From an uncultured Bacilli bacterium (GTDB lineage Bacteria; Bacillota_I; Bacilli_A; RF39; UBA660): 39,757 nt of DNA. The notes below the pieces were generated by a model. It was not told the origin of the DNA. It did not search any database and saw nothing but the letters and a program-made list of their open reading frames with translations. Shown one piece after another: positions 7,684 to 15,507 of the stretch. Numbering within the stretch: position 1 is the stretch's first letter; each line of letters opens with the position of its first letter. Location of the stretch: contig CALVVR010000012.1 in the NCBI GenBank assembly GCA_944363915.1, positions 1-39,757 on the forward strand, read 5' to 3'. Made by a program: the position numbers and the translations under genes.

Positions 7684-9822
7684 ATGAAAAAGAATTCAGG
7701 AATATTTTTTTTAATTTTACTTATATTTATTTATGCTTTGCCTTTAATTATTGATTATATAGCAACAAATATGGAAGAAAGTACTGGACCAAATGATTAC
7801 GCTAGAATAGTCGATGTCGATTATAAAGCAATTGTTTTAGATGAACAAGGATATGGTGGGGATATACTAGTTACTGAAAAACTAACTTACGACATCCACG
7901 CTGCTTCAATAAATAATCCATTTTGGGAACTATGGCGTGATTTACCAGAAGACTATGTCGATGGACTAAAAGTAGATTATGATGTTATATCAGTAAAACA
8001 AATTAATCCCGATGGAACAGAAATAATTTATGAAGAAAGCCCTAAACTATATTGGGATGATAGCGATTATACAAGTTCTAAATATGGACCTTTTAAATGG
8101 TATCATAGTAAGGGACCATACAATGAAAACCTAGCAAATTATGAGGCAGTATTTTTTTACATAAACGGAATATATCGTGAAGAAGTAACCTTTGAATTAC
8201 AATATATTATGCATAACGCTTCTTTGAAATATAGTGATGTTTCCGAATTATATATATCAATGTATTCCGAAGATACCATTAAATACTTAAAATCATTTAA
8301 TGGCCAAATTTTAATACCTGATAAAGATATGCCAAAAGCAAATAACTATTTAGCCCATACCTATGGTACTAATTCACATACATTTGAATTTACCGAATCA
8401 GATAATGTTAATCCTGGGTATCACACATTCCTTTTCAATTTAGATAGTTCTGATTTAAAATTCAAACCATATAATAAATATTTAGAATTTTCTTTACTGT
8501 CTTTTAATGAAGATAAACATATATTTACTGATTATACCCCAAATAACATTTATTCAAATGAAGTATATTTAGAAGAAGCAAAACAAGCTATAGAAGAATA
8601 TGATAATTTACCAAAAGAATATAAAAATAAAAAAATTATTTTCTTAACAATTACTTCAATAATGTCAATTTTAATTTTATACACAACAATTAATAAAGAT
8701 AAAAAAATTAAAAACAAATATAATTTTTATCGACCAAAAATGAAAATGAAATATTTTAGAGATATACCAAGTGATTTAGATCCGTATTTTGCAGCTACTT
8801 TAGCATTTTGTAAAAAAAATAAAAAAGTCGATATCGGTGATAGTTATTCAGCAATTATATTAAATTTAGTAAGGAAAGGTTATATTGAGTTAACTAAAAT
8901 TGTTGATTATAAAAAATGGACTTCAAATAATATAAATATTAATATTCTATATGTTCCAACCTTAATCAATAACCGTTATTCGCTAAATTCACAAATAAAT
9001 AGTCAAAATAATTTCCAAGCTAATCAAATGGTTATTGAAGAAAAATATAATAAGAATGGCCAAAAATTAGAAGACCTTTCAGAAAATGAAAAAAATTATT
9101 TCAATTTAATTGTTAAATATGCTTATAATAATTCAGTAACGATGAAAGATTTTCAAGAAAAAATAGCTAAAAATTATGATAGTACCAATAGTTTTATTAA
9201 TTCTATTAACTCATCTATTGTTAATATTGGAATTAATCAAAAATATTTTCAAATTTCTGATTATAAATATGTTAAAAACAAGTATAGTTCTACTGGTACA
9301 ATGTATATAATTATAGCATTAATTATATTAATTATTGGTAACTTAATTATTTATAACACAAGATTTGATTTTGCCTTCGGTTCTTTATTTATTTTAGGTT
9401 TAGTTTTGATTATAAGCGCAATTATTTTAAAAATAAAGTCTAAAAATTATATTTTATTAACTCAATTTGGCGCTGATGAACAAGCAAAATGGTATGCTTT
9501 ATATAATTTTTTAAATAGTAACACATTAATAAAAGAAAAAACAATAATTGAATTGCCACTTTGGGAAAAATATTTAGTTTATGCTACAGCTTTTGGTATT
9601 TCCGAAAAAGTAATTAAAGCTTTAGAAATAAATTGTCCTGATGTTGCTAATAGCCCTCTTTTAAGTAATAGATATTATCGATCTGCTAATTTTAGACATT
9701 ATAATCGTTCTTTTAGAAATACAACATATACTGCTAGATCTATATCTCATAGTAGTAGATTTGGTGGATCATTTTATGGTGGTGGCGGCCGCGGCGGTGG
9801 AGGCGGTGGCGGTGGCCATTAA
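7684..9822 (+). CDS. DUF2207 domain membrane protein with glycine-rich tail
   Basis: 712 residues and the only plus-strand gene. An N-terminal membrane segment at about 5-23 is followed by an extracellular DUF2207-type beta-rich domain (about 38-300, including DIHAASINNPFWELWRDLP and GIYREEVTFELQY). A membrane helix lies at about 316-335, then a cytoplasmic stretch of about 200 residues, two adjacent helices (about 540-559 and 565-587), and a C-terminal region ending in a run of Gly (GGGGRGGGGGGGGH). This order, with the poly-Gly tail, is typical of DUF2207 proteins, whose function is not established. It has its own promoter. The final codons are much richer in GC than the surroundings because Gly codons are GGN. 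It converges on the homospermidine-synthase-like gene. Confidence 0.85.
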   Translation: MKKNSGIFFLILLIFIYALPLIIDYIATNMEESTGPNDYARIVDVDYKAIVLDEQGYGGDILVTEKLTYDIHAASINNPFWELWRDLPEDYVDGLKVDYDVISVKQINPDGTEIIYEESPKLYWDDSDYTSSKYGPFKWYHSKGPYNENLANYEAVFFYINGIYREEVTFELQYIMHNASLKYSDVSELYISMYSEDTIKYLKSFNGQILIPDKDMPKANNYLAHTYGTNSHTFEFTESDNVNPGYHTFLFNLDSSDLKFKPYNKYLEFSLLSFNEDKHIFTDYTPNNIYSNEVYLEEAKQAIEEYDNLPKEYKNKKIIFLTITSIMSILILYTTINKDKKIKNKYNFYRPKMKMKYFRDIPSDLDPYFAATLAFCKKNKKVDIGDSYSAIILNLVRKGYIELTKIVDYKKWTSNNININILYVPTLINNRYSLNSQINSQNNFQANQMVIEEKYNKNGQKLEDLSENEKNYFNLIVKYAYNNSVTMKDFQEKIAKNYDSTNSFINSINSSIVNIGINQKYFQISDYKYVKNKYSSTGTMYIIIALIILIIGNLIIYNTRFDFAFGSLFILGLVLIISAIILKIKSKNYILLTQFGADEQAKWYALYNFLNSNTLIKEKTIIELPLWEKYLVYATAFGISEKVIKALEINCPDVANSPLLSNRYYRSANFRHYNRSFRNTTYTARSISHSSRFGGSFYGGGGRGGGGGGGGH

Positions 9823-9848
9823 AAAAAGAATATTCAGTTATTCTTTTT
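9823..9848. terminator. Bidirectional terminator between convergent genes
   Basis: Perfect 10-bp stem AAAAAGAATA / TATTCTTTTT with a 6-nt loop (TTCAGT). T runs occur on both strands, so it can terminate both the plus-strand DUF2207 transcript and the minus-strand operon. The stop codon of the homospermidine-synthase-like gene (9838-9840) begins at the loop and extends into the stem. Confidence 0.85.
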
Positions 9849-11250
9849 CTTTTGTAAAAAAATCATTAGATTGTAAATTGTTAATATCAATATTTAATGC
9901 TTTTTCTAATTCTTGTTTATCAATTGTTTTATAAATTGTTTTAGATACGTATTTTTCAGCTTTCTTAACTATATATTTATAATCTTTTATATCGTCTGGA
10001 AAATATATGCCGCCTTGTTCTTTATTTTTTATCATCCAACATAAAGCCGATAGTGCTGACATTGCAACTGGTGTAATAGTTGGTGTTTGAAAATAAGAAT
10101 TTTTTTTACGATACAAATAAGATAATTCAATTCGATTGCCTACCCAAACAGGCTCAAATTTATCACCAATTATTAATACACCAACATACTCCGTTCCATT
10201 TTTAATTTTATCTTTGTATACTATTTCCCATTCATTAGGATAAATATGTCCTCTTACAATATTTTCATTTTCTAAATTTATTTTAGAATTAATTATGTAT
10301 TGATTAGCTAAAAAGCAAGGAGAATAAATAAACATAACTGATGGACGATAAATTATTTTATCATTAACCTCTAAACTATTAGCAATCGTAATTGTCTCTT
10401 CGTGAGGAACTAAATATCCTTCAAAATAACCATTTGGATAATATGTTTTACATTTCATATCAAGTGCTAATTTTTTATATTCAACAAATCCTTTATCATA
10501 ATCTAATAAATTACAATCATTTTGATCAATACTTTTTTCATAAGTTCCAATATTTTGAGTAGCTTCACTTAACAACTCAAAGAAAAACGAATCAACACAC
10601 CAAGTACTAACTAGTTTATCATTTTTAAATTCTTCTTTAATATTTTGTAAATCAATATCATTAACGTGAATCATTTTAACATTTAATTCGTAAGCTAACA
10701 AATTAAATTTATTATCTTTTATTAGTTGTTTATAATACTTATTATGTTTAAATTGTTTGTTAACAATATATTCTAATCCTAATTTAACAAAATGGGATAC
10801 TAATCCTGGATTATTACCATGTTGTAAAACAATAGGATATTTAGGATGACATTCTTCTTTTAATTTGTTTTTTTTAATGTTTTCTTCAAATATACTATAC
10901 CAATTATCCGGCCAATCTGCTTCGCCTGTATTAAGATACATTATGTTATTATCGATACACCATTTACATATATCTTTTGTTCCTACTGTATCAGCAAAAT
11001 CAACTAATATATCGCCATCTTTTAAAAATTTACTAAATATTTCTTGATAATTATCTTTTGTTATTTCATAAACATAAAAATTAGTTGTTATACCGCCTAA
11101 ATTTATATAAGGAATATATTCCTCTTTATTAGCAGTAATAACAAAATAATCATTATTTTTAAATTGTATTTCTTCTTTTATTTTTTCATAAAAACTTTTA
11201 CCAACTGCTCCAAAACCAAATTGAACAATTTTTCCAGAAAATTTTAACAT
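9838..11250 (-). CDS. Homospermidine synthase-like enzyme
   Basis: 470 residues, close to the about 477 of bacterial homospermidine synthase, which makes sym-homospermidine from putrescine with NAD. Nucleotide fold at the N-terminus (QFGFGAVG, 10-17); family hallmark HGNNPGLVSHF (144-154). Aligning by eye to my memory of the Blastochloris viridis enzyme, the active-site Asn, Trp, Glu and His are kept as N147, W217, E225 and H283. The stretch after W217 (TQNIGTYE) differs from the usual ELGWGT, so substrate preference may differ. Last gene of the operon; its ATG comes one base after the stop of the preceding gene and has no visible ribosome binding site, so translation is probably coupled. A carboxynorspermidine or saccharopine dehydrogenase is less likely. 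Confidence 0.82.
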   Translation of the reverse strand: MLKFSGKIVQFGFGAVGKSFYEKIKEEIQFKNNDYFVITANKEEYIPYINLGGITTNFYVYEITKDNYQEIFSKFLKDGDILVDFADTVGTKDICKWCIDNNIMYLNTGEADWPDNWYSIFEENIKKNKLKEECHPKYPIVLQHGNNPGLVSHFVKLGLEYIVNKQFKHNKYYKQLIKDNKFNLLAYELNVKMIHVNDIDLQNIKEEFKNDKLVSTWCVDSFFFELLSEATQNIGTYEKSIDQNDCNLLDYDKGFVEYKKLALDMKCKTYYPNGYFEGYLVPHEETITIANSLEVNDKIIYRPSVMFIYSPCFLANQYIINSKINLENENIVRGHIYPNEWEIVYKDKIKNGTEYVGVLIIGDKFEPVWVGNRIELSYLYRKKNSYFQTPTITPVAMSALSALCWMIKNKEQGGIYFPDDIKDYKYIVKKAEKYVSKTIYKTIDKQELEKALNIDINNLQSNDFFTKEKE

Positions 11251-11251
11251 A

Positions 11252-11890
11252 TTAATTAATATATTTAATTTTTTTTATTTTAATTTCTTTAATTGGTTCA
11301 AAACCATTGGTAAAAAGTATTTTTATATTATTTTTTTGATAATCAAACAATATTTTACTTAAATCTTTATTTATTTTGTTTGCTCTAACTAATATTTTAT
11401 CAATACAATTATTTAAAAAATATTTCGAAGAAGGTAAATCTTGATAATATACATCCCAACTATTATCAAAAACACTACTATCAATTTTATATCTATTTAA
11501 TCTATTTTCATCTAAAAGAAAAACCGGCAAAGCATCGTCTTTTAATTTTATTTTTTGTAGTTCTAAAGCTCCCCAAACCAATAATGGTTCAATTAATTTA
11601 TTATTAGTAGTAGAAGAAGCATTATTAGAACTAGTACCATTAAATATTGGAATCGGTCTATAGCCTATTTTAGATAATTCAATACCTTCTTTAATACTAT
11701 CGATACCATTTATATCAATTATTATAGCAGTATTATCTAGTGCTTTATTTAAATAATTAATAGTAGGTATAGTATAATCAATAAATTCATTTATTTTTTC
11801 ATCAAGATAAATAAAAGGAACTGGCCTTACCCAAGAACACCATTTTATATTACAAGGGGCCCATATTTTATATACTTCTTTATTTGTCAT
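11252..11890 (-). CDS. Unrecognised protein in the polyamine-like operon
   Basis: 212 residues, no family recognised. Soluble, with no signal peptide or membrane helix. The N-terminus is rich in Trp and Cys (W10, C13, W17, C18, W20, then RPVPFI). Other marked segments are AIIIDINGIDSIKEGIELSK (about 55-74), GYRPIPIFNGT (76-86) followed by a Ser/Asn/Thr-rich loop, and PVFLLDENRLNRY (122-134). The alternating hydrophobic strands and helices suggest an alpha/beta fold. The ATG overlaps the end of the ATP-grasp gene by 11 nt, and the stop is one base before the next start, so it is tightly coupled to both enzymes. A step in, or a partner for, the same pathway is inference. Confidence 0.8.
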   Translation of the reverse strand: MTNKEVYKIWAPCNIKWCSWVRPVPFIYLDEKINEFIDYTIPTINYLNKALDNTAIIIDINGIDSIKEGIELSKIGYRPIPIFNGTSSNNASSTTNNKLIEPLLVWGALELQKIKLKDDALPVFLLDENRLNRYKIDSSVFDNSWDVYYQDLPSSKYFLNNCIDKILVRANKINKDLSKILFDYQKNNIKILFTNGFEPIKEIKIKKIKYIN

Positions 11891-13085
11891 TTTTAGTCCT
11901 TTCTATTACCACTGGAATATCAGCCGCATAAGAATCTATTCGCGGTAATTCACTTATTCTAGCATAAAATCCCGCTTGTTTACCATCTACTGTATAAGAT
12001 CCTAGACATACATGATATTCTTTATTATCAATTTTAATTGGTTTACTAATAAATTTTTTTTGAGCAATATAATTTTTAGGATGTCTTTTTACATCTTTTA
12101 TTATCTTTAAATATTCTTCTTTAGAACAAGCCTCTTTAATCGATATATTTTCTCCTACTCGCCCACAAGCAGGTTTATATATGTATCCTTCTTTAAAATC
12201 TTTAACTTCTTTAGTGTCTGATAACATTTCTTTCCAAGTAGTCATTTTAATACCATTTTGTTCTAAAATATTCCAAACAAGCGGAAATCTTTTCGTTTGG
12301 GCAAATATTGCAATTGGATGATTACAAGATGGTGTTATAGTATCAAAATAACCACTCCAAGTTTTAGGTTTAATATCTTTTAACCATTCTAATGGCGTAA
12401 ATCTAAATATACAATCAACTTTACCTTCATAATTATTTAAAATACTTATAGCTTCTTTATTTTTAAAAATTAAATGATCCGCCGCACCATAAATAGATTT
12501 ATAACCGAGATTTCTCATCTTATCCCCAATATATTGCATTACTTGGCGGTCATCACTATAAGATGTACAATGAACAAACATTATCGTACCATTTTTTTTA
12601 ATTTTTTTACTAATTGCTTTAGATAGCATTTCTCCAAAGTCAATACTATAATAATCTTTATTTAAAGTTTTAATAGCTAATTTAGGAAGTAAAGATGCTT
12701 CAGCAAAACCACCAGGGACATCGCTATTTACTTCACTTATTTGCCATTTATTGTCGATGGTTAGGTGAAAATCATAGCGCATTAACCGGATATGTTTACT
12801 TTTATCATAGTTCTTCATTTTTTTAATTTCTTTAATTAATTTTTTAGGTATACATAAAGGTTTTATATATTTTAAATTATTATTTAAAAATTCTTCAGCT
12901 TGAATAGTTTCTAAATCTAATTTTTCCGTTAAATCAACTAATTCTTTATATTCATCTTCATTTAATACTAAAACATATTTAGCTAAAGTATTGTTATCAA
13001 CAAACTTTGGATCCCATTTATAACATTCAAATATCGCATCAATACGATAATTATTATATTTTTCTCCTATTGGTACTAACTTCAT
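11880..13085 (-). CDS. Glutathionylspermidine synthase-like ATP-grasp ligase
   Basis: 401 residues, about the length of YgiC/YjfC-type members of the GSP_synth family (ATP-dependent carboxylate-amine ligases). RYDFHLT (103-109) and EVNSDVPGGFAEAS (118-131) match the R-x-D and E-x-N-x-D acidic metal/substrate block. K304 with GRVGENI (308-314) corresponds to the family's K...GREG loop; LGSYTVDGKQAGFYAR (361-376) matches the C-terminal block with the conserved Arg. There is no amidase (CHAP) domain, unlike E. coli GspS. AAAGGAG precedes the ATG. Placed just before an unknown gene and a homospermidine synthase-like gene, it may join an acid or peptide to a polyamine. The acid partner is unknown; no glutathione gene is seen here. 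Confidence 0.82.
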   Translation of the reverse strand: MKLVPIGEKYNNYRIDAIFECYKWDPKFVDNNTLAKYVLVLNEDEYKELVDLTEKLDLETIQAEEFLNNNLKYIKPLCIPKKLIKEIKKMKNYDKSKHIRLMRYDFHLTIDNKWQISEVNSDVPGGFAEASLLPKLAIKTLNKDYYSIDFGEMLSKAISKKIKKNGTIMFVHCTSYSDDRQVMQYIGDKMRNLGYKSIYGAADHLIFKNKEAISILNNYEGKVDCIFRFTPLEWLKDIKPKTWSGYFDTITPSCNHPIAIFAQTKRFPLVWNILEQNGIKMTTWKEMLSDTKEVKDFKEGYIYKPACGRVGENISIKEACSKEEYLKIIKDVKRHPKNYIAQKKFISKPIKIDNKEYHVCLGSYTVDGKQAGFYARISELPRIDSYAADIPVVIERTKNDK

Positions 13086-13095
13086 TTTTATTCTC

Positions 13096-13124
13096 CTTTT
13101 AAATATTATATCATTAAAAAAAGC
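13096..13124 (-). promoter_or_regulatory. Possible internal promoter before the ATP-grasp gene
   Basis: In the 42-nt gap after the lactate dehydrogenase gene the minus strand has a good TATAAT -10 with a weak TTATAA -35 17 nt upstream. It would let the ATP-grasp, unknown and homospermidine-type genes be made separately from the two upstream genes. Confidence 0.35.
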
Positions 13125-13127
13125 ATT

Positions 13128-14030
13128 TTATAATTTTAAAATTGCTTCTTTAATAGCATAAATTGAGTTTTTTAATTTAATAGTTTCTTTTTCATTTAAA
13201 TTAACATATATTTTATCTTTAACACCCTTTTTATTTATAACTGCTGGCAGGCCAATAAATATATCATTATTTTCATCATAAGTTGAAACAGTTATAATAC
13301 TATTTTCGTTATTCAATATAGCATTAGTTATTCTAACTAAACACATACCTATGCCATAATAAGTAGCGCCTTTACGATTTATTATTTCATAAGCGGCATT
13401 TTTAACGTCAAGATATATTTTTTCTAATTCTTCATCAGTTAAAAAATCTTTAATATTTTGTAACCCTATATTAGCGTTACTCCATGGAACAAATTCAGAA
13501 TCGCCGTGTTCACCAATAACATAAGCATGGACATTTTTAGGACTTATTTTTATTTTTTCGGCAATCATATACCTTAATCTTGCTGTATCTAAACTAGTTC
13601 CTGTCCCAATGATTTTGTTTGGTGATAAATTAGAATATTTATAAGTTAAATAAGTCATCACATCTAAAGGATTAGTAGCAACTAAAAAAATGCCATTAAA
13701 ACCACTTTTCATAACTTTATTTACAATATTTTTAAATATTTTACTATTTTTTTCAATTAAATCCATTCTTGTTTCGCCTTTTTCTTGATTAGCTCCAGCA
13801 GCAATTACAACAATAGTCGCATCTTTACAATCACTATAGTCGCCAGCTTTAATATCTATTTTATTAGGAGCAAAAGCTAAACAATGATTTAAATCCATTA
13901 CTTCTCCTATAATTCTTTCTTTATTTAAATCTACCAATACCAATTCATTAACACTTGTACTTTGATTAAGTAATGCATAAGCATAACTCATTCCTACATT
14001 ACCACATCCAATTAAAACTATTTTATTCAT
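13128..14030 (-). CDS. ldh: L-lactate dehydrogenase
   Basis: 300 residues. Interconverts pyruvate and L-lactate with NAD(H) in the cytoplasm. Rossmann glycine motif GCGNVG (8-13). Catalytic and substrate residues are visible: Q82 in the specificity loop before GETRMD (Gln favours pyruvate/lactate; malate dehydrogenases carry Arg here), R88, N120 in ATNPLDV, R151 and H175 in IGEHGDSEF. The start overlaps the GNAT gene by 8 nt. It is slightly shorter than typical LDH (about 313-317). Its place upstream of the polyamine-like genes may mean a 2-hydroxyacid is used there, or that it is simply a fermentation gene. A related 2-hydroxyacid dehydrogenase specificity remains possible. Confidence 0.88.
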   Translation of the reverse strand: MNKIVLIGCGNVGMSYAYALLNQSTSVNELVLVDLNKERIIGEVMDLNHCLAFAPNKIDIKAGDYSDCKDATIVVIAAGANQEKGETRMDLIEKNSKIFKNIVNKVMKSGFNGIFLVATNPLDVMTYLTYKYSNLSPNKIIGTGTSLDTARLRYMIAEKIKISPKNVHAYVIGEHGDSEFVPWSNANIGLQNIKDFLTDEELEKIYLDVKNAAYEIINRKGATYYGIGMCLVRITNAILNNENSIITVSTYDENNDIFIGLPAVINKKGVKDKIYVNLNEKETIKLKNSIYAIKEAILKL

Positions 14031-14448
14031 TTTCTTTTCCTTTCTTTATCCATAAATACATTCCATCCATATTAGTTGGTTTATATTTAAATCCTAATCT
14101 TTGATAAAAGTTTCTTTTTCCATAAGCGGGACATAGTTCGATTAGAAATTGTTCATCTTCTTCTAAAAAATTAAAGACATAGTCCTTTATTTTTAAAACT
14201 AACTGACTACCAATTTGTTTATTCTGATAATTTGGTAAAACGACGACATCGGCAATTAAGCCGTGAGTTCCATAATCACCAATAAGTCTTGCCATGCCAA
14301 CTACTTTATTTTTTTCTTTGGCGATTACTACACACATTGAATTTTCAAGTGCATTTTTAATTTGTTTTTCACTTAATTCTTTCCAACCCGCTGATTTGAT
14401 TAGCATCTTATAATCAGTAATTTGAATATCCTTAGTAATTATTATATC
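14023..14448 (-). CDS. GNAT-family N-acetyltransferase
   Basis: 141 residues from a GTG start at 14448. Acetyl-CoA-dependent acyl transfer, substrate unknown. GNAT strands are visible: MCVVIAKEKNKVVGMARLIGD, then LIADVVVLPNYQNKQIGSQL with the acetyl-CoA loop (canonical Q/R-x-x-G-x-G/A appears as QNKQIG), and FYQRLGFKY near the end. The upstream ATG at 14466 is rejected: it lies at the predicted transcription start, whereas GTG at 14448 has AAGGTGA at good spacing. First gene of the five-gene run. An amine or polyamine substrate would fit the neighbours but is inference. Confidence 0.85.
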   Translation of the reverse strand, partial: DIIITKDIQITDYKMLIKSAGWKELSEKQIKNALENSMCVVIAKEKNKVVGMARLIGDYGTHGLIADVVVLPNYQNKQIGSQLVLKIKDYVFNFLEEDEQFLIELCPAYGKRNFYQRLGFKYKPTNMDGMYLWIKKGKENE

Positions 14449-14470
14449 CACGATTATCACCTTCATACCA

Positions 14471-14499
14471 ATTTTAACATATAAAAAAAATGAAGTAAA
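14471..14499 (-). promoter_or_regulatory. Promoter of the GNAT-LDH-ligase operon
   Basis: On the minus strand TTTACT (14494-14499), a 17-nt spacer and TAAAAT (14471-14476). The predicted start of transcription is near 14464, leaving a leader of about 15 nt before the GTG at 14448. Confidence 0.6.
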
Positions 14500-14502
14500 T
14501 AA

Positions 14503-14537
14503 TTAACAAAAAACCTTGAAAATATTTCCAAGGTTTT
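14503..14537 (-). terminator. Intrinsic terminator after rpsI
   Basis: Nine-bp stem AAAACCTTG / CAAGGTTTT with a 10-nt loop, followed on the minus strand by TTTTTT. It separates the rplM-rpsI operon from the GNAT promoter just downstream. Confidence 0.9.
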
Positions 14538-14550
14538 GATATGCAATATA

Positions 14551-14964
14551 TTATCTTTTACTAAATTGTGGTGCACGACGAGCTGCTTTTAATCCTGGTT
14601 TCTTACGTTCTTTAATTCTTGAATCTCTAGTTACAAAACCAGCTCTTTTTAATATTTTACGATAACTATCTTCATTTGCTTCATTTACTTTATCGTATTC
14701 TAACAATGCTCTTGTAATACCTAATCTGATTGCGCCTGTTTGTCCTGTAAATCCGCCACCATTAACTTTAACATCAATATCGAATGTTTTTTCATTATTA
14801 GTAGCTACTAATGGTTGCATTAAATCCATTACATTAGTTTCATAAGGGAAGAATTCTCTAACATCACGACCATTAACAGTAATTTTACCGCTACCTGAAG
14901 TCATTTTTACTTGAGCTACAGAAGATTTTCTTCTACCTGTTCCAAGATATACTTTCTTTTCCAT
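14551..14964 (-). CDS. rpsI: 30S ribosomal protein S9
   Basis: 137 residues, slightly longer than the usual about 130. S9 sits in the head of the small subunit; its C-terminal tail contacts P-site tRNA. Family features: [14 protein letters not shown] at the start, [15 protein letters not shown] in the middle and the invariant SKR end. Eight nt after rplM, the normal bacterial pairing. Confidence 0.97.
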
Positions 14965-14972
14965 TAAATCAC

Positions 14973-15401
14973 CTATTTCATTTCCTTTGGTTGTTGAGCA
15001 GTATGTGGATGTTCACTGCCAGCATAAACAAATAATTTTTTATACATTTGACGACCTAATCTTCCTTTAGGTAACATTCCTTTAACAGCTCTTTCAACCA
15101 TTTCAACTGGATAATCATCGCGCATTGTTCTTGCAGTTCTTTCTCTTAAACCACCTGTATAACCACTATGATTGTAGTAAATTTTGTCATCTAATTTATT
15201 ACCAGTTAAATTTACTTTACTAGCATTAATTACGATAACATAATCACCACCATCGATATGAGGTGTATAAGTTGGTTTATGTTTACCACGTAATACTGTA
15301 GCAACTTTAGTAGCTAGTCGACCTAAGTTAACACCTTCAGCATCGATTACCCACCAATCTCTTACTACATCTTCTTTTCTTTGCATATAAGAATTTTTCA
15401 T
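14973..15401 (-). CDS. rplM: 50S ribosomal protein L13
   Basis: 142 residues from the ATG at 15401; a longer in-frame start at 15479 is rejected because it falls inside the promoter -10 and the 26 extra residues would be leader sequence. GAAAGGAAAG precedes the chosen ATG. Early assembly protein of the large subunit. Family motifs: [25 protein letters not shown] and HPHTAQQP. Confidence 0.97.
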
Positions 15402-15472
15402 AATACTTTCCTTTCTTCCAAATAATGAATTGTCCCAAGATTCATTAAATGTGGGAATAAATAAATGTACCA
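15402..15472 (-). promoter_or_regulatory. rplM leader with hairpin (L13-leader candidate)
   Basis: The predicted leader of about 70 nt holds a perfect 7-bp hairpin, AATGAAT / ATTCATT with a 9-nt loop (15424-15446), about 22 nt before the start codon. Firmicutes rplM leaders often carry an autoregulatory L13-binding structure; whether this one matches that family needs a covariance search. Confidence 0.5.
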
Positions 15473-15478
15473 GTAACA

Positions 15479-15507
15479 ATTGTACTAAAAAAACATATAT
15501 TTGTCAA
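15479..15507 (-). promoter_or_regulatory. Consensus promoter of rplM-rpsI
   Basis: Minus strand: TTGACA (15502-15507), exact 17-nt spacer, TACAAT (15479-15484). The -35 lies in the loop and the spacer in the 3' arm and T tract of the truA terminator, so the two signals are superimposed. Confidence 0.88.

Follow-up and report, generated by a model that had tools for sequence, protein, structure and literature searches.

A three-gene ligase cassette of uncultured Bacilli that plausibly makes a polyamine conjugate

A conserved unit at the locus

We analyzed a 39,757-nucleotide stretch of an uncultured Bacilli genome (hereafter the window), in which three minus-strand genes form a compact cassette: an ATP-grasp acid-amine ligase of the GSP_synth family (PF03738; positions 11880..13085, 401 aa), a 212-residue protein that we call P212 (11252..11890) and an NAD-dependent enzyme resembling homospermidine synthase (HSS; 9838..11250, 470 aa). 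Ligase and P212 genes overlap by 11 nt and a gap of 1 nt separates P212 from the HSS-like gene, bearing out the statement of a first-pass annotation that these genes overlap or abut. All three are under purifying selection (dN/dS of 0.06-0.20 against the relatives L002-L004), and the three proteins diverge in step, with high correlation between their pairwise distances (r 0.89-0.96), to which the shared ancestry of the genomes contributes.

A scan of public genome contigs yielded 14 relatives, all of them metagenome-assembled genomes (13 titled Bacilli and one Clostridia). Gene order (ligase, P212, HSS-like) and strand are kept in 14/14, some contig ends cutting into the ligase or the HSS-like gene, and the same order recurs in all 8 further genomes of the window's family that were matched, again with some genes clipped. 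The genes upstream of the ligase vary between loci, and no transporter or regulator accompanies the cassette across them. The host is a small gut-type bacterium, and in one genome (CALVRE01) the cassette is present twice, on separate contigs (L008 and L014).

The first-pass annotation had treated the cassette as part of a five-gene minus-strand pathway with an L-lactate dehydrogenase (LDH; 13128..14030, minus strand, above two NCBIfam cut-offs) and a GNAT acetyltransferase (14023..14466, minus strand), each an ordinary representative of its family. All five reading frames are open and of the kinds it named, but the tight five-gene order is merely local, and its end at 14448 falls six codons inside the GNAT frame, whose start is at 14466. 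Among the relatives, only the closest ones (L002-L005) have LDH in the vicinity of the ligase, at variable spacing, and GNAT was seen in L005 alone; neither is near the ligase in L006-L015. Since neither gene accompanies the cassette and the upstream genes change, a five-gene pathway is rejected and the unit comprises three genes, a real, conserved and probably biosynthetic unit separated here from two accidental neighbors. GNAT and LDH come directly after rplM-rpsI (window positions 13128-15479), and in the nearest relatives, too, LDH is found shortly after rpsI; it is therefore probably part of the ribosomal-protein operon region.

Across genomes, the cassette is rare and patchy, even inside a genus. 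P212 was found in 6/392 genomes of the phylum (the window's own included), and a high-scoring ligase in the same six; the HSS-like profile matched only the window's genome in this set, plus one weak match of 50 residues. In further samples the ligase occurs in 9/164 genomes of the window's family (f1) and, at the level of the class, in about 2% of genomes. P212 is present in 16/16 sampled genomes with a strong ligase match and adjoins the ligase at every such match fetched, the pair being split over two contigs in G428. Ligase and P212 are thus the core of the system, and P212 represents a partner protein family, not found described, that always accompanies one branch of acid-amine ligases. 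The HSS-like gene stands at the same place in all family genomes with the ligase, mostly at near-zero spacing, but is missing from the ligase-P212 loci of four other Bacilli families (f2, f14, f19 and f20), which indicates that the ligase does not need it. Of the co-occurrence that the first-pass annotation had proposed to check among the three genes, the ligase-P212 half is therefore constant and the HSS-like half is not. In three of these four families a DUF350-type membrane protein is encoded upstream of the ligase (G055, G158, G206, G239, G426 and G428); three of the four such proteins tested exceed the PF03994 cut-off and the remaining ones are homologous. An HSS-less pair in G389 lies near LemA and DUF2207 genes, and L009 and L027 likewise have LemA close by. 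Two main forms of such ligase systems thus exist in Bacilli, one linked to DUF350 and the other to the HSS-like enzyme.

Searches for other kinds of element gave no support for them: the cassette has no relatives in viral contigs, the plasmid matches are distant GSP_synth or HSS homologues with none for P212, and PADLOC returned no match to a defense system.

Enzymes and the proposed pathway

The ligase reaches 74 bits with the GSP_synth profile (PF03738; cut-off 29.3) and consists of a stand-alone synthetase domain with intact catalytic and ATP-site residues (R103, D105, E118, N120, D122, K304 and R309). Aligned with YgiC, YjfC and the ligase of phage Motura, the ATP/Mg residues (R, D, E, N, K-P, R) are invariant across the cassette ligases. 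The amine-site motif, SDDRQVMQY, is of the EDR type and keeps its acidic residues; it resembles VEDRGTIQY and DEDRSTVLY of YgiC and YjfC, not the sequence of glutathionylspermidine synthetase (GspS). YgiC and YjfC are given as peptide-spermidine ligases in RefSeq product names and by Pederick 2023 as cited in PMC12568646. A glutathionylspermidine synthetase/amidase (GspSA) proper was rejected, since the ligase scores 37.5 bits where the cut-off is 882 and has no amidase domain. A structure model of the ligase was left unused because its confidence was too low (pLDDT 48).

The HSS-like protein contains the saccharopine-dehydrogenase NAD domain (PF03435, 47.7 bits), and its alignment with solved homospermidine synthases spans almost the whole protein (for 2ph5, E = 5.5e-35 with a single sequence, 3.2e-44 with a profile). 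Its identity to named HSS matches stays below 30%. The catalytic residues of BvHSS are E117, N162, E210, W229, E237, H296 and E298 (PMC8489232); compared with a BvHSS sequence copied from a printed alignment, the window protein keeps five of the seven, N147, W217, E225, H283 and E285 corresponding to N162, W229, E237, H296 and E298. The Asn, the cation-pi Trp and the Glu-His-Glu triad are invariant among the HSS-like proteins.

P212 has no relative in Pfam, NCBIfam, PHROG, PADLOC or PDB sequences, a DUF3137 match remaining below cut-off. Its AlphaFold model has a fairly confident Rossmann-like alpha/beta core (pTM 0.82), for which a Foldseek comparison with PDB and viral models gave nothing at E <= 0.001, and conserved motifs include WVRPVPF, RPIPIFNGT, LLDxNRL and FDNSWDxYxQDxPS. 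Two forms exist: the DUF350-linked loci encode a long P212 with an extra C-terminal tail, RRNSAGGFGG...GIG or alike (n=6), whereas the P212 of the window's family and of G389 is short and lacks the Gly tail. The P212 gene of G158 (L028 7756-8502) has an in-frame TAA and may be broken, or the TAA may be an assembly error.

Taken together, we consider it plausible, at a probability of roughly one half, that the three genes form an operon making a polyamine conjugate, with both substrates read from family relationships. Given its kept catalytic residues, the HSS-like enzyme with bound NAD would oxidize an imported diamine and couple the aldehyde to a second amine, yielding a homospermidine-like amine. 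The ligase, following the chemistry of its family, would then convert a carboxylate to an acyl phosphate and join it in amide linkage to a primary amine group of this homospermidine-like compound. P212 goes with the ligase and not with the HSS-like gene, and so most likely serves the ligase step, where it could act as carrier, specificity subunit or target. Of the acid-polyamine coupling suggested in the first-pass annotation, the conserved unit stands, as do the ligase and HSS-like families that make such conjugates and polyamines, but GNAT and LDH drop out.

Several observations weigh against this pathway. Both amine-steering acids of BvHSS are changed in the window protein: E117 is replaced by A111, which lies between Glu and Asp, and E210 by D198, and the BvHSS E210 variants Q, A and K are inactive (PMC8489232). 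These changes suggest HSS-type chemistry on a modified substrate. In the genome, which is 92% complete and whose content was tested family by family, neither ornithine/arginine/lysine decarboxylase fold tested (PF01276 and PF02784) had a match, with positive controls, nor did spermidine synthase (PF01564), and PotA stayed under its cut-off (best match 176 bits against 355.6). With no usual source of putrescine found, any putrescine used by the HSS-like enzyme would come from outside through another importer, or from another enzyme. The role of P212 is a guess, since it has no recognizable fold match, and the absence of the HSS-like gene from four families with the pair also counts here.

The altered acids E117 and E210, the kinship of the HSS family with saccharopine-type dehydrogenases and the missing polyamine biosynthesis genes would also fit a cassette that makes no polyamine at all: with amino acids as substrates, the HSS-like enzyme would work as a reductive coupling dehydrogenase, the ligase would link amino acids, and the product would be a small amide of amino acids or a peptide that resembles a metallophore or an opine. 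We regard this as unlikely, since the Glu-His-Glu triad, the Asn and the cation-pi Trp of HSS are invariant, the amine-site motif of the ligase is still acidic, and neither transporter nor regulator travels with the cassette. Less probable still, the HSS-like gene joined the pair late and has nothing in common with it beyond shared transcription, so that the pair keeps its ancestral role, perhaps in envelope stress as the DUF350, LemA and DUF2207 context might hint. The restriction of the HSS-like gene to f1 and the fact that in G389 the pair without it stands next to LemA and DUF2207 would agree with such an addition, but the fixed place of the gene in all family genomes with the ligase, its mostly near-zero spacing and the strongly correlated divergence speak against it.

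Relation to described systems

The first-pass annotation knew of no described pathway with this gene set, which was too strong a statement. In phage Motura and beta-proteobacteria hss lies next to gss, and glutathionylhomospermidine has been suggested as the product (PMC9992855); operons combining DUF350, DUF1190 and PspA with a glutathionylspermidine-synthetase-like ATP-grasp ligase have also been reported (PMC11237479). The identical gene set was not found described in the literature searched, in which subscription papers were mostly not covered.

The order hss, DUF1190-like, gss was confirmed in the sequence of Achromobacter phage Motura. Like the window, Motura-type clusters encode an HSS together with a GSP_synth-family ligase, and a polyamine conjugate has been proposed for them, which favors the same reading here. 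They differ in running from a typical HSS through a DUF1190-like lipoprotein to gss, whereas the window has the order ligase, P212, HSS-like, with changed amine-steering acids in the last, and its middle position is held by P212, which is unrelated to DUF1190 by sequence. The YjfIJKLM-YjfC and YgiBC systems share the ligase family and motif with the window cassette, and in the sister clades of the latter DUF350 also lies upstream of the ligase; in these systems a DUF350 gene, a DUF1190 gene or both adjoin the ligase, whereas the window and its family loci have neither, P212 replacing DUF1190 and the HSS-like gene being added. GspSA shows distant homology in the synthetase domain and common ATP-grasp residues, but its amidase domain is absent from the window ligase. 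BvHSS, PaHSS and the Legionella protein 2ph5 are homologous to the HSS-like enzyme over the full length and agree with it in five of the seven catalytic residues, differing at E117 (A in the window) and E210 (D).

Glycine-rich tails beside the ligases

Proteins encoded next to ligases of this family frequently end in [RS]GG[FYW]G...G. Such neighbors occur in E. coli (YgiB, ending in RGGFGES...SMGG, and YjfM, ending in RGGYG...HWGG), Vibrio, P. syringae, Acinetobacter, Asticcacaulis and Sulfitobacter, and in the phages Motura, phiAS4 and AB-Navy1, with close variants beside the ligases of Rhizobium, Roseomonas and Deinococcus. They are DUF1190 or unannotated proteins, including unannotated phage reading frames, and among the sampled loci they lie at L072 2745-3416, L073 7388-8026, L074 2402-3358, L076 2699-3466, L077 2669-3406, L086 2344-2952, L087 2082-2618, L071 7288-7671, L029 8157-8903 and L031 8642-9418. 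Some sampled ligases have no Gly-tailed neighbor, e.g., those of Azospirillum and phage DSS3_VP1. In a background of 585 open reading frames drawn from the same loci, 23 combine a terminal Gly with GG[FYW]G among their final 60 residues, and 22 of the 23 (16 distinct genes) are ligase neighbors. The motif was spotted post hoc, but tail and ligase are strongly associated. What is new here is the P212 family, the HSS-bearing variant and the C-terminal Gly tail RGG[FYW]G...G beside such ligases, including that of long P212.

The founding enzyme of the family, GspS, acts by activating glutathione at its C-terminal Gly, which makes a Gly tail a natural candidate for the acid substrate. For the type of product there is precedent in the C-terminal conjugation of eukaryotic SUMO to spermidine (PMC12270671). 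The RGG[FYW]G...G tail is accordingly a candidate target signature, and the acid substrate may be a protein C-terminus. If so, the ligase would amidate the C-terminal Gly of a neighbor-encoded protein with a polyamine; the tail would sit on P212 in the DUF350-linked Bacilli and, in the window's clade, would have passed to DUF2207 or been adopted by it, with the HSS-like enzyme supplying the amine. We hold this to be possible but doubtful, since the motif was found after the fact and the P212 of the window has no tail.

The DUF2207 membrane protein itself (7684..9822, plus strand) is convergent with the cassette, 15 nt from the stop of the HSS-like gene, and is a possible member of it. It flanks the cassette convergently in most family loci, adjoins the HSS-less pair in G389 and is the only Gly-tailed protein beside the window cassette, which favors it as a target. 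Within the family its Gly-rich C-terminus, GGGGRGGGGGGGGH, hardly varies, but the last residue is His, and Fusobacterium and Acetoanaerobium have DUF2207 proteins with Gly-rich tails and no such ligase adjacent. The link between DUF2207 and the ligase is therefore weak, and its tail loses value as specific evidence.

In the broadest form, which we put forward as a tentative proposal drawn from sequence patterns, YgiC/YjfC-type ligases would be C-terminal protein-polyamine ligases acting on RGG[FYW]G...Gly tails, carried by DUF1190 in Proteobacteria and phages and by long P212 in Bacilli, and the window variant would make a special polyamine of its own for DUF2207 or a trimmed form as target. 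Should the tail indeed mark the target, attachment of polyamines to protein C-termini would be a simple modification at the disposal of bacteria and phages.

Related Gly/Ser tails were also seen on plasmids of the Bacillus group, where GSP_synth genes are preceded by genes for proteins of 84-91 residues with the endings SGIGSS...GASS (L082 3037-3312), SGLGS...AGS (L089 3149-3409) and KGIGS...AGS (L064 5356-5610).

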